Positions 20,810-25,968 of a stretch of 64,000 bases of DNA are shown in pieces. Position 1 is the stretch's first letter, and each line of letters starts with the position of its first letter. The position numbers and the translations under genes were made by a program. This DNA is from Rhodospirillaceae bacterium (GTDB lineage: Bacteria; Pseudomonadota; Alphaproteobacteria; Rhodospirillales; Rhodospirillaceae), in contig JAVJSV010000021.1 of NCBI GenBank assembly GCA_040219235.1, forward strand, positions 124,001-188,000. The letters run 5' to 3'. The notes below the pieces were generated by a model, which was not told where the DNA came from, searched no databases, and was given only the letters and a program-made list of their open reading frames with translations.

Positions 20810-22894
20810 ATGCCTCACGCCACATCTGAACTCCTGCTTGAACTCCTCTCGGAAGAAATTCCTGCCCGCATGCAAGTGCGTGCCGCCGAGGATTTAAAAC
20901 GTTTGCTGTCCGACGGTCTCAAACAGTCCGGATTGACGTTTTCACGGTTAGACACGTTCTCTGGCCCGCGCCGATTAACGGTTGTCTGCGATGGACTGCC
21001 GGATGCGCAGCCGGACGTAACAGAAGAGCGCAAAGGTCCGGGCGTTGATGCCCCGGAGCGGGCGATTGAAGGCTTTCTCAAGGCCAACGGACTAGCGTCT
21101 GTTGAGGAGGCTGAAAAGCGCGAGTTGCCCAAGGGCACGTTCTACTTCGTCGTGATCGAACGTAAAGGACGACCCACCGCGGATGTTCTGAAAGATGTGA
21201 TCGAGGCGGCATTGGCAGCCTTGCCGTGGCCTAAGTCTATGCGCTGGGGTGCAGGAGATACCCGCTGGGTACGTCCCTTGCACAGCATGCTTTGTGTGTT
21301 CGGTGGGGCTATTGTGCCTATTTCTTATGCCGGTGTGATCGCCTCCAACACCACGGTTGGGCATCGATTCCTGGCACCGAATGAGCTTCAAATCTCAGAT
21401 TTTGCGTCGTACAGGGATGCTATGAACTCCGCCAAGGTGATGGTTGAGGCCAGTCAACGCCGTCAAGTGATTGCCGACGCTGCCGACGCTTTGGCACAGG
21501 CGGAAGGACTGAAGGTCACAAATGATCCAGGGCTTCTTGATGAAGTGGCGGGCCTGGTTGAATGGCCAGTCCCTTTGTTGGGAACCATTGACGATGAGTT
21601 TATGGATGTACCGACTGAAGTTCTGACCTCCGCCATGCGGAAGCATCAGAAGTACTTCGCCCTTGAAACCAAAGACGGCACGTTTTCAAATCGCTTTGCT
21701 GTGGTCGCCAACATCGAGACGTCGGACGCCGGAGCGGCAATTGTCGCCGGCAACGAGCGTGTGCTGCGGGCCCGGCTGTCAGACGCTAAGTTCTTCTGGG
21801 ATCAAGATCGTCAGCAATCTTTGGCAAGCCGTGTGGATAAGCTCAGTGAACGGGTCTTTCAGGCTGATCTCGGTACGGTGCGGGATAAGGTTACCCGCCT
21901 CGAACGCCTGGCGGGGTCAATTGCCGGTCATATGGACGGTGCGCTGCTTGAACAGGTTAAGCGGGCTGCGACGTTATGTAAGGCGGATCTTTCAACCGGT
22001 ATGGTCGCTGAATTCCCCGATCTGCAGGGCATTATGGGCCGTTACTACGCGGCCAATGACAAAGAAGACGCTGCCGTTTGTAATGCAATAGCCTCGCATT
22101 ATGCCCCTCAAGGTCCGTCTGATGTCTGCCCGTCAGACCCCGTGAGTGTTGCTGTTTCTCTGGCCGATAAAGTCGACACTCTGGTTGGTTTTTTCGCGAT
22201 TGATCAAAAGCCGACAGGTTCTAAAGACCCTTATGCGCTGCGCCGGGCTGCGCTAGGGGCGATCCGGCTGGTCTTAGAGAATAAACTCCGCCTTTCGTTG
22301 AGCGACATTTTCGCACAGTCCTATGACGCCTATTCTGTGCAGCTAAAAACCGGCCGTCAAACCGTTGCGGATGAGTTGCTGGCGTTCTTTGCTGACCGCC
22401 TCAAAGTTTTCCTCAAAGAACGCGGTGTGCGCCACGATCTGATTAGCGCTGTTTTCGCTGTGGGCAATGAGGACGACCTTGTGCGTCTGATGTCTCGTGT
22501 GGATGCGCTCGCTACCTTCTTAGGCAGCGACGATGGTGCGAACCTGCTGACGGCGTGCAAGCGGGCCGCGAACATCGTGCGCATTGAAGAAAAGAAAGAT
22601 GGCGTGACTTTTGGTCAGTCCACTGATGCCTCTCACCTCGCAGTTGATGATGCCAAGACCCTTGCGGACACGCTCAAGGGCGTTGAAGTCACTGTTCAAA
22701 CGGCAGTCTTAAAAGAAGATTTTGGGGCTGCAATGTCTGCTCTGGCGACTTTGCGTCAGCCCCTGGACGTGTTCTTCGACAAAGTGACTGTGAATGCGGA
22801 CGATCCTAAAGCGCGCGTCGCAAATTTGAACCTTTTGGCCCGAATCGGTAAATCTATGGACCGCGTCGCCGTTTTTTCCCATATTGAAGGGTGA
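20810..22894 (+). CDS. glyS: Glycyl-tRNA synthetase, beta subunit
   Basis: 694 residues, normal for the beta chain, which contributes tRNA binding and contains an HD-like domain and a C-terminal anticodon-binding (DALR-like) domain. The N-terminus LLLELLSEEIPARMQ and the internal KSMRWG, MRKHQKYFAL and DLQGIMGRYYA segments are diagnostic. AGGAGG lies before the ATG. A small imperfect hairpin (CCAGC-GAC-GCTGG, 22915-22927) follows the stop without a T-run. Confidence 0.97.
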   Translation: MPHATSELLLELLSEEIPARMQVRAAEDLKRLLSDGLKQSGLTFSRLDTFSGPRRLTVVCDGLPDAQPDVTEERKGPGVDAPERAIEGFLKANGLASVEEAEKRELPKGTFYFVVIERKGRPTADVLKDVIEAALAALPWPKSMRWGAGDTRWVRPLHSMLCVFGGAIVPISYAGVIASNTTVGHRFLAPNELQISDFASYRDAMNSAKVMVEASQRRQVIADAADALAQAEGLKVTNDPGLLDEVAGLVEWPVPLLGTIDDEFMDVPTEVLTSAMRKHQKYFALETKDGTFSNRFAVVANIETSDAGAAIVAGNERVLRARLSDAKFFWDQDRQQSLASRVDKLSERVFQADLGTVRDKVTRLERLAGSIAGHMDGALLEQVKRAATLCKADLSTGMVAEFPDLQGIMGRYYAANDKEDAAVCNAIASHYAPQGPSDVCPSDPVSVAVSLADKVDTLVGFFAIDQKPTGSKDPYALRRAALGAIRLVLENKLRLSLSDIFAQSYDAYSVQLKTGRQTVADELLAFFADRLKVFLKERGVRHDLISAVFAVGNEDDLVRLMSRVDALATFLGSDDGANLLTACKRAANIVRIEEKKDGVTFGQSTDASHLAVDDAKTLADTLKGVEVTVQTAVLKEDFGAAMSALATLRQPLDVFFDKVTVNADDPKARVANLNLLARIGKSMDRVAVFSHIEG

Positions 22895-22988
22895 GGTCGC
22901 TTTAGGATTGGTGCCCAGCGACGCTGGATTCCCGCCATTTCCCAACGGCATCTCATTTCCCCATATTCAGCCTTTTCTTGCAGGAAAA

Positions 22989-23055
22989 ATGTAAGTAAAG
23001 CTTGCCTCGTCTTACGTAAGTAAGGCTTAACTTACATGTAAGTTGTGACTTACAT
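22989..23055 (+). promoter_or_regulatory. Cluster of TTAC/GTAA operator-like sites before the HTH-PPDK gene
   Basis: Within 67 bp the octamer ATGTAAGT or its complement ACTTACAT occurs four times: 22989-22996, 23030-23037 with 23036-23043 (together the perfect 14-bp palindrome ACTTACATGTAAGT), and 23048-23055. A second perfect palindrome, CTTACGTAAG, is at 23011-23020. The array ends 21 bp before the ATG at 23077. This is the layout of binding sites for a small HTH repressor, and the gene behind them begins with such a domain. Binding by that domain is inference. Confidence 0.65.
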
Positions 23056-23076
23056 TTCTGCATAAGCGGGGCCTTA

Positions 23077-25968
23077 ATGCGCGATTCAGCACTCGAAAAA
23101 GCAATTACAGCAGCCGGTGGCACAGCCTCTCTGGCGCGTTCAATTAACGTAACGCCCCAGGCGATTAGCCAATGGGAGCGCGTGCCAGCCGAACGTGTCA
23201 TCGCTGTTGAAGAAGCAACTGGCGGTAAAATAAGCCGCAGCGACTTACGGCCAGATCTTTATCCAAATGGTGGCGCAGTTGGTTCGATTGGCGTGGCTGG
23301 AACGGATGGCAAGTGGGTCTACTTCTTCGGCGATGGCGAGGCAGAAGGCTGCGCAGAGATGAAAAACCTGCTCGGCGGGAAGGGCGCAAACCTTGCTGAA
23401 ATGAGTGCGATTGGTATTCCGGTTCCGCCTGGCTTCACGGTTACAACAGGTGTCTGCACCTACTTTTATGACAATGGCCGCGTGTATCCCGATGACCTCA
23501 CTGAACAGGTTAATGCGGGCTTGGCCCGCATTGAAGCGACCATCGGTGCTAAATTTGGTGACCCGATTAATCCGCTTCTTGTGTCCGTCCGCTCGGGCGC
23601 GCGTGCTTCAATGCCGGGTATGATGGACACAGTCCTAAATCTAGGCTTGAACGATGAAACGGTTGAGGGATTGGCTAAGCACTCCGGCGATGCCCGTTTT
23701 GCCTATGACAGCTATCGTCGTTTTATCCAAATGTACTCAGATGTTGTCCTTGGTGTTGATCACTACACTTTTGAGGAGCTGCTGGACCTTGCCAAAGAGG
23801 ATAAGGGTGTTCATCAAGACACAGATCTAACGGCAGACGATCTAAAAGACCTGGTGGCGCTGTATAAAGCCACTGTCGAAAAAGATAGCGGCAAGCCGTT
23901 TCCACAAGACCCCCACGATCAATTGTGGGGCGCTGTCGGCGCTGTGTTCGGAAGTTGGATGAACCAACGCGCCAACACGTATCGCGCACTTCATAATATT
24001 CCTGACGCCTGGGGCACGGCTGTTAACGTCCAGGCTATGGTGTTCGATAATATGAGCGATGATTGCGCCACCGGAGTTTGTTTCTCGCGCGATCCATCCG
24101 TTGGTGACAACGATTTTTACGGTGAATATCTGGTCAATGCGCAGGGCGAGGATGTCGTCGCTGGAATTCGTACACCTCAGCAAATCACCATTGCGGGCAA
24201 GCAGGCCCAGGACTCAGACTTGCCAGCCATGGAAGAAGCCATGCCTGAGATGTATCGGGAATTGGTTGCGCTGCGCGATAAGCTTGAGCGTCATTATCGC
24301 GATATGCAGGACATGGAATTCACCATCCAAAAGGGCAAGCTTTGGATGCTGCAAACACGTAATGGCAAACGCACGTCGAAGGCGTCTCTCAAAATTGCCG
24401 TCGATATGGCCAATGAAGGTCTGATCACGCGCCAAGAAGCCGTCGAACGCATAGACCCAGCCCAATTAGATCAACTGCTACATCCCACGCTGGACCCCAA
24501 CGCGAAGCGCACGATTTTATCGCGAGGTTTACCGGCGTCACCAGGGGCGGCTTCGGGCAAAATCGTATTTACCGCTGAGGACGCTGAAGACTGGGTGCAA
24601 AAGGGCGAGAAGGTTATTTTGGTGCGCCGGGAAACCAGCCCAGAGGATATCGGTGGCATGCACGTCGCCGAGGGTATTCTCACCACTCGCGGTGGCATGA
24701 CCAGTCATGCGGCCGTGGTGGCCCGTGGCATGGGAACGCCTTGCGTTTCTGGGGCCGGTGACATTCAGGTTGATGTCAAAGAAAAGTATCTTCGTGTGCG
24801 GGATGAAATCCTTCATGAGGGCGATATCATGACGTTGGATGGCTCTACCGGCGAAGTTTTCTTAGGCCGGGTTGCGACGATTGAGCCAGAAATGACCGGA
24901 GACTTTGGCACACTCATGGAATGGGTCGATGACATTCGGACTCTCAAAGTGCGGACCAATGCAGAGACCCCCAAAGATGCTGAAACAGCCCGTAAATTTG
25001 GGGCTGAAGGCATTGGCCTGTGCCGCACGGAACACATGTTCTTTGAGCAGGATCGCATCATCAGTGTGCGCCAGATGATTCTGGCGGCTGACGAAGGTGG
25101 CCGGGCGGCGGCGCTCAATCGGCTGTTACCCCATCAACGCGGCGATTTTGTCTCCCTGTTCAAGATCATGGGTGGTCTGCCGGTCACAATTCGCCTGCTT
25201 GATCCGCCCTTGCACGAATTTCTGCCGCACAGCGAAGCAGAGATTGCAGAAGTCGCTGCATCGTCTGGTGTGTCTGTCGAAACAGTGCATAACGCGCTCA
25301 ACCGGTTGAGCGAATTGAACCCAATGTTGGGGCATCGCGGGTGCCGTTTAGGGGTTACCTATCCAGAGATCTATGCCATGCAGGCCCGCGCCATATTTGA
25401 GGCCGCCATAGAGGTTGCCAATAAAGGAACGAGTGTCTTACCGGAAATTATGATTCCACTTGTGAGCACCAAGCTGGAACTCGACCTGATGAAGACGGTT
25501 GTGGATGACGTTGCCGCAGATGTGTTTGAAAAAGCAGGTCAGTCGGTCGCCTATATGGTGGGGACAATGATCGAATTACCGCGTGCCGCACTCAAGGCTG
25601 GAGAAATTGCAGAAAGTGCTGAATTTTTCAGTTTTGGCACCAACGATCTCACGCAAACCACATTGGGGATGTCTCGGGACGACTGTGCGCCGGTGTTGGA
25701 GGTCTATATGGCGAAAGGGATTTATGAACGTGATCCGTTCGCCACGCTGGACCGTGAGGGTGTTGGTGAGTTGATCGAAATTGCTGTTGAACGTGGCCGC
25801 AAAACCCGAAGTGATATCAAGCTTGGCATCTGCGGTGAGCATGGTGGTGATCCGGACTCCATTGCCTTTTGCCAGGAGGTCGGCCTTGATTACGTCTCCT
25901 GTTCGCCGTATCGCGTTCCGGTCGCAAGACTGGCGGCAGCGCAGGCGGCTCTCAAGAGTCGGTCGTAA
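23077..25968 (+). CDS. ppdK: Pyruvate phosphate dikinase with an N-terminal Cro/YdaS-like HTH domain
   Basis: 963 residues. Residues ~77-963 are a complete PPDK: KWVYFFGDG start, the nucleotide-binding domain with NLLGGKGANLAEM, the swivelling phosphohistidine domain (GGMTSHAAVVARG, His544), and the C-terminal PEP/pyruvate TIM barrel with LGICGEHGGD (Cys919). It interconverts pyruvate + ATP + Pi and PEP + AMP + PPi, supporting gluconeogenesis. Residues 1-62 are extra and form a Cro/YdaS-like helix-turn-helix (ASLARSINVTPQAISQWER). The frame is continuous with no stop or start needed between them, though a second start near 23300 is conceivable. An operator-like array lies immediately upstream. 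Confidence 0.95.
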   Translation: MRDSALEKAITAAGGTASLARSINVTPQAISQWERVPAERVIAVEEATGGKISRSDLRPDLYPNGGAVGSIGVAGTDGKWVYFFGDGEAEGCAEMKNLLGGKGANLAEMSAIGIPVPPGFTVTTGVCTYFYDNGRVYPDDLTEQVNAGLARIEATIGAKFGDPINPLLVSVRSGARASMPGMMDTVLNLGLNDETVEGLAKHSGDARFAYDSYRRFIQMYSDVVLGVDHYTFEELLDLAKEDKGVHQDTDLTADDLKDLVALYKATVEKDSGKPFPQDPHDQLWGAVGAVFGSWMNQRANTYRALHNIPDAWGTAVNVQAMVFDNMSDDCATGVCFSRDPSVGDNDFYGEYLVNAQGEDVVAGIRTPQQITIAGKQAQDSDLPAMEEAMPEMYRELVALRDKLERHYRDMQDMEFTIQKGKLWMLQTRNGKRTSKASLKIAVDMANEGLITRQEAVERIDPAQLDQLLHPTLDPNAKRTILSRGLPASPGAASGKIVFTAEDAEDWVQKGEKVILVRRETSPEDIGGMHVAEGILTTRGGMTSHAAVVARGMGTPCVSGAGDIQVDVKEKYLRVRDEILHEGDIMTLDGSTGEVFLGRVATIEPEMTGDFGTLMEWVDDIRTLKVRTNAETPKDAETARKFGAEGIGLCRTEHMFFEQDRIISVRQMILAADEGGRAAALNRLLPHQRGDFVSLFKIMGGLPVTIRLLDPPLHEFLPHSEAEIAEVAASSGVSVETVHNALNRLSELNPMLGHRGCRLGVTYPEIYAMQARAIFEAAIEVANKGTSVLPEIMIPLVSTKLELDLMKTVVDDVAADVFEKAGQSVAYMVGTMIELPRAALKAGEIAESAEFFSFGTNDLTQTTLGMSRDDCAPVLEVYMAKGIYERDPFATLDREGVGELIEIAVERGRKTRSDIKLGICGEHGGDPDSIAFCQEVGLDYVSCSPYRVPVARLAAAQAALKSRS

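Follow-up and report, generated by a model that had tools for sequence, protein, structure and literature searches.

Comparison of the ppdK gene with its relatives suggests that the encoded pyruvate phosphate dikinase (PPDK) is probably a trigger enzyme, an enzyme that would bind the promoter of its own gene, most likely as a repressor. The coding sequence lies at 23077-25968 on the plus strand of the window (the whole 64-kb stretch of DNA that was analysed) and consists of a single continuous frame of 963 amino acids with an ATG start. The features of a trigger enzyme that can be read from sequence were found here, namely an intact enzyme, a DNA-binding domain in the same chain and a candidate operator at the enzyme's own gene, and the fusion was provisionally placed among the "trigger enzymes". 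The original prediction of a self-regulating enzyme gains strong support from the comparison of fusion genes with head-less ones, in which an upstream array accompanies the head (at least 2 CTTAC/GTAAG sites in 36 of 36 fusions vs 2 of 95 controls).

A Cro/YdaS-like helix-turn-helix had been predicted at the N-terminus, in frame with a full-length dikinase, and profile searches bore this out. YdaS (PF15943) matched residues 6-63 with an E-value of 2.1e-19 and 69.6 bits against a cut-off of 30, P22_Cro (PF14549) matched residues 8-55, and the PPDK equivalog TIGR01828 spanned residues 79-959 (1392.6 bits; cut-off 843.45). The head comprises residues 1-63 (23077-23265, plus strand), as delimited by PF15943 and an AlphaFold model, and is followed by a flexible linker of residues 64-78 (23266-23310, plus strand), which is 11-35 amino acids long in relatives and differs between them in sequence as well as in length. 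The dikinase domain occupies residues 79-963 (23311-25965, plus strand), and the alignment of PPDKs from the PDB to the fusion protein begins at residue 78/79. His544 (codon 24706-24708, plus strand) is invariant in alignment A1 and aligns with chain position 455 of the PDB PPDKs, presumably the phospho-carrier histidine; Cys919 (codon 25831-25833, plus strand) aligns with chain position 831, which we take to be a catalytic cysteine. The dikinase part is a predicted intact enzyme that resembles bacterial PPDKs (TIGR01828) in being full length and in retaining the catalytic His and Cys positions, whereas the fusion differs from them by an added 63-residue predicted DNA-binding head.

This is the one full-length PPDK of the genome, the four further matches being weaker relatives (28-33% identity), and its head is the sole YdaS match. 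Pyruvate kinase is also encoded, as is a PF03618 protein. A kinase/phosphatase known to regulate PPDK belongs to PF03618, and the fusion PPDK may therefore be under two-level control. The adjacent gene upstream is glyS (glycine--tRNA ligase beta; 20810-22894, plus strand; TIGR00211, 771.5 bits), which is a neighbour only and lies outside the proposed device.

The 67 bp from 22989 to 23055 hold four ACTTACAT/ATGTAAGT octamers and two palindromes, in agreement with the original prediction. The most distal half-site, ATGTAAGT as written on the plus strand, lies at 22989-22996 in minus-strand orientation, with GTAAG at 22991-22995. The sequence CTTACGTAAGTAAG at 23011-23024 (plus strand) is made up of the palindrome CTTACGTAAG (23011-23020) and an additional overlapping GTAAG. 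The second palindrome, ACTTACATGTAAGT at 23030-23043 (plus strand), contains the octamers at 23030-23037 and 23036-23043, and the half-site ACTTACAT at 23048-23055 (plus strand) lies 21 bp ahead of the start codon. These four octamers are the only ones in the 64-kb window, where 0.95 would be expected, and four anywhere were reached by 1 of 100 window shuffles. The sites are present as predicted, but 5-base half-sites of variable number and spacing describe the array better than two special palindromes do. A known RNA element was rejected as an explanation, its sole match being far under the gathering score.

The N-terminal extension recurs in ppdK homologues, as anticipated. Residues 1-108 were used to query 73 same-family genomes, and the head was matched in 36 of them, spread over eight genera; 31 of the 73 matched only closer to the PPDK start, and the 6 with no match were all less than 90% complete. 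The extension was found in all six other genomes examined of the same genus. Sites were then counted over the 220 bp that precede the start of the head, and 95 PPDK genes whose match to the fusion protein starts at residue 53 or later, mostly around 78, were used as controls (97 loci, from which L059 and L092 were removed by start and length filters). CTTAC/GTAAG was present in 36 of 36 fusion upstreams (2-8 copies, mean 5.6), whereas control upstreams had a mean of 0.08 (8 sites across 6 of 95 genes, maximum 2) and Markov-resampled fusion upstreams a mean of 0.46. The co-occurrence of array and extension was confirmed, with at least three sites in 35 of 36 fusion upstreams vs 0 of 95 non-fusion upstreams. 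Within the family, where 31 genomes have head-less PPDK genes, nine such genes were examined and CTTAC/GTAAG was absent from all nine. When no motif was preset, the top 6-mer was CTTACA, found in 35 of 36 fusions vs 1 of 95 controls (Fisher p 1.6e-29, with relatedness ignored).

Sites were found in every fusion gene of all eight genera, with spacing and orientation that differ among genes. A set of 11 upstreams, in which genus g19 was represented by four and each of the seven other genera by one, was compared at an E-value of 1e-3, and 2 of 55 pairs aligned, over 26 and 68 bp. Because upstreams of different genera scarcely align, the array appears to have been kept while its surroundings changed; leftover homology is excluded as its source, and the sites look kept by selection. 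glyS was found upstream of ppdK in 28 of the 36 fusion genomes, at 148-1912 bp, and was not found within 1500-2409 bp upstream in the other eight. The array remains at ppdK where other DNA separates it from glyS or where glyS was not found. In four g19 upstreams (L129-L131, L134), GTAAG...CTTAC pairs flank hairpin-like sequence, and CTTAC lies between a ribosome-site-like sequence and the start codon; the g19 repeat might also act in an RNA leader.

One caveat of this comparison is that the sampled fusions go back to a single event, and the 36 cases of co-occurrence are therefore not independent of one another. A whole-protein query matched from residue 1 or 2 in 13 of 41 genomes, the genome studied here included, while the remaining near-complete PPDK matches begin at residues 58-79. 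Full-length fusion homologues with 75-88% identity were found in 12 other genomes, and in a tree of 39 PPDK domains the 13 fusions form a single branch (support 100/99). Outside the family, PF15943 was found in no PPDK-sized frame among 317 genomes of the order (E-value up to 1e-3), nor among 385 of the class and 398 of the phylum (E-value up to 1e-8). A single origin of the PPDK fusion is the simplest reading of these data.

In the device proposed here, the head would read the CTTAC half-site. PPDK is a homodimer, and the dimer would present two heads that could grip two of the 2-8 half-sites. Because spacing and orientation vary, we favour half-sites read by flexibly tethered heads over one rigid palindrome, and the flexible linker would account for the variation. 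An occupied array would block ppdK transcription, and the cell would thereby count its PPDK molecules and hold their number steady. More speculatively, the catalytic state of the enzyme (phospho-histidine, PEP, pyruvate, ATP) may alter binding by the head and so provide feedback at the pyruvate/PEP node.

A different outcome of binding has to be considered, in which the main effect of a head bound to the array is activation of ppdK, tethering of the enzyme to DNA or control of a neighbouring gene. The array spans -88 to -22 relative to the start codon, where -35/-10 elements could not be recognised, and CTTAC abuts the start codon in some g19 relatives, both of which are compatible with activation or tethering. 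When 22850-23120 was scanned, no sigma-70 promoter or terminator was found, and because there is no sigma-70 consensus promoter around the array, its geometry cannot tell repression from activation. However, Cro-type proteins are classically repressors, and the constant neighbour of the array is ppdK, not glyS. We therefore consider these outcomes unlikely next to self-repression.

When the head alone was modelled with AlphaFold, five helices were predicted (pLDDT 76.8). The closest solved structure was Xfaso 1 Cro (3bd1; E-value 5e-4, TM 0.67/0.80, 43% identity), and the second distinct protein among the structure matches was E. coli O157 YdaS (E-value 0.044). Structure prediction thus agrees with the proposed fold of the N-terminal part, residues 1-63 being modelled as Cro-like with 3bd1 as best match. 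In the full-length model the head and the dikinase are each folded, and residues 64-76 have pLDDT below 50. The likely recognition helix and its flank, TPQAISQW (residues 26-33; 23152-23175, plus strand), would contact DNA, and a helix is predicted at residues 27-31. V25, T26, Q28, A29, S31, Q32 and W33 are invariant in 25 head rows from 24 genomes, and residues 25-33 (VTxQAxSQW) rank among the best-conserved segments of those heads.

By profile, above the curated cut-off, and by the Cro-like helical fold of the predicted model, the head is the same domain as the YdaS/phage Cro family (PF15943, PF14549). It has been argued that YdaS is a Cro and not a toxin (PMC5917428). The fusion head differs from that family in that it sits on a metabolic enzyme by glyQ-glyS, outside a prophage immunity region; glyQ and glyS lie upstream, and the other ORFs in 17-31 kb of the window were judged for prophage context by eye only. 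Several phage relatives of the head adjoin CI-like genes. When six phage Cro relatives (47-54% identity) were examined for a CTTAC array, at most one CTTAC/GTAAG was found in the 170 bp before each. Because these six are without the array, the half-site reading is unconfirmed by an outgroup, and the lack of a CTTAC operator at the six speaks against a simple helix-to-site rule.

The motif was also sought elsewhere in the genomes. CTTAC-N0-3-GTAAG occurs at 8 places in the genome studied here vs 17 for the reversed control, and a three-fold CTTAC pattern at 6 places, 2 of them at ppdK (both strands), vs 9 for the control. Elsewhere in this genome CTTACGTAAG occurs at three sites, each within an open frame longer than 150 codons. 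In ten further fusion genomes, the three-fold pattern was found at ppdK in nine (G084 being without it), and matches elsewhere numbered 14 in total vs 59 for the control. A global regulator with many targets is unsupported for the patterns tested. The absence of the array at the phage relatives would fit a head that no longer reads DNA and serves as an assembly or stability aid, with a separate regulator owning the CTTAC array. However, the array is found with the head and is missing without it, as the nine head-less genes of the same family also show; conservation within the head is among the highest at the predicted recognition helix, and clusters elsewhere in the genomes are not above control. 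A head that has lost DNA reading is very unlikely.

The fusion itself is real. In 33 of the 36 head-bearing genomes, this one included, the frame that contains the head stays open for 965 or more amino acids, and in the other three (G068, G081, G088) the frame reaches the contig end. Uninterrupted frames in 33 separate assemblies rule out an assembly error or frameshift. When 33 of 35 linkers were scanned (L140 and L142 not included), no ATG was found in any of them, which speaks against an internal start after the head. GTG was found in 9 of the 33, at no common position and with a weak ribosome-site match in only one. The head has a median dN/dS of 0.047 (eight genomes; 17 of 28 pairs usable, with synonymous sites near saturation) and the first 500 dikinase codons, in a gap-free reading, of 0.026 (eight genomes; 8 of 28 pairs usable). 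These values are low in both, and therefore head and dikinase look under purifying selection. An artefact from a frameshift, mis-assembly or a translation start after residue 70, for which the GTG at codon 73 of the window gene might be invoked, is hardly credible for a head that evolves as a protein in uninterrupted frames with no shared internal start. A frame break, a late start and absence from close relatives had been named as grounds for rejecting the fusion, and none of these was found. Separately, in five genomes of genus g15 (G020, G061, G062, G064, G065) similarity to residues 69-108 crosses an in-frame stop before a head-less PPDK, and in G056 similarity to residues 45-108 crosses an in-frame stop 5' of a head-less PPDK; this may be chance extension or a decayed head.

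PF15943 scans of other alphaproteobacteria found the YdaS head at the N-terminus of five other unrelated protein families. In genus g48 (L154, L155, L156, L157, L161) it precedes a ketopantoate reductase PanE/ApbA, identified by Pfam on L156 and by eye on the other four. It also precedes chaperones of the TorD/nitrate-reductase-delta type (L152 4001-4792, L190, L191, L198-L203, L206, L223-L229), identified by Pfam on L152, L190, L199 and L203 and by eye on the others; in L152, formate dehydrogenase alpha follows two genes later. The other partners are an NAD(P)H-hydrate epimerase/dehydratase (L204, 1323-3047, minus strand; the one genome sampled from its taxonomic family), an EPSP/MurA-family enzyme (L205, 1005-2471, minus strand) and an RraA-like protein (L207, 794-1750, minus strand). 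Among 17 other genomes with YdaS in a class sample, 11 had the match in a frame of at least 271 amino acids, and in a phylum sample YdaS was in a frame of this length in 9 of 18 other class members vs 0 of 33 genomes outside the class (longest 167 amino acids).

Repeats were found upstream of some of these genes as well. CTACAA-N4-9-TGTA lies just upstream of 5 of 5 PanE fusions vs 0 of 95 PPDK controls, and CATAG-N6-8-CTAT upstream of 9 of 14 TorD fusions vs 0 of 95, where 190 bp were searched at TorD genes and 150 bp at controls, and the TorD count excludes three fusions whose head is different; both patterns were written after the sequences had been seen, and some of the genomes are close kin. 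Upstream of L204 are two GTAAGCATAACTT elements and, farther up, an 11-bp inverted repeat. The L204 head helix, RPQAVYQW, resembles the PPDK head helix and has GTAAG and CTTAC in front, though this is a single case. L205 and L207 have repeat-like sequence before the start that is no better than resampled at the 5% level, and when the other YdaS fusions were scored for inverted repeats one sequence at a time, the results were mixed, many being no better than resampled. The YdaS-headed proteins are alike in their N-terminal head, with a shared upstream repeat within the PanE and the TorD groups, and differ in having unrelated second domains and other repeats. We tentatively suggest, at somewhat less than even chances, that alphaproteobacteria have used the YdaS/Cro head as a plug-in module for self-control, grafting it repeatedly onto unrelated enzymes and chaperones, each with a matching operator at its own promoter, and that in PPDK the swivelling of the catalytic cycle adjusts how tightly the head holds DNA and so couples the PEP/pyruvate state directly to transcription.

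One account names five trigger enzymes of E. coli (PutA, BirA, NadR, PepA and PyrH) and describes PutA as binding the putA-putP spacer only and as repressing its own gene without proline (PMC8249747). The fusion PPDK as proposed would resemble PutA and the others described there in being an enzyme that also acts on transcription. It differs from PutA in the enzyme and in the DNA-binding fold, which in PutA is a ribbon-helix-helix, and on the PPDK side there is a short half-site array. No paper was found on PPDK with YdaS and, as judged by title and abstract start, none on PPDK fused to a helix-turn-helix or with an autoregulating DNA-binding domain, in a search outside which most subscription papers lay. 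Searches largely without subscription papers likewise found none on YdaS with ketopantoate reductase or on "carph-isopro", and no such fusion by title or abstract start for YdaS with TorD and YdaS domain architectures.

Few trigger enzymes are known, and the fusion PPDK, if the reading is true, would bring direct self-control of transcription to the pyruvate/PEP node. Because genes with the head and genes without it both occur naturally, the roles of head, array and enzyme can be told apart by experiment. That five other protein families carry the same head suggests a reusable route from phage repressors to metabolic self-regulators. If the module reading is true, a phage switch protein would have become a general means by which proteins count their own molecules.
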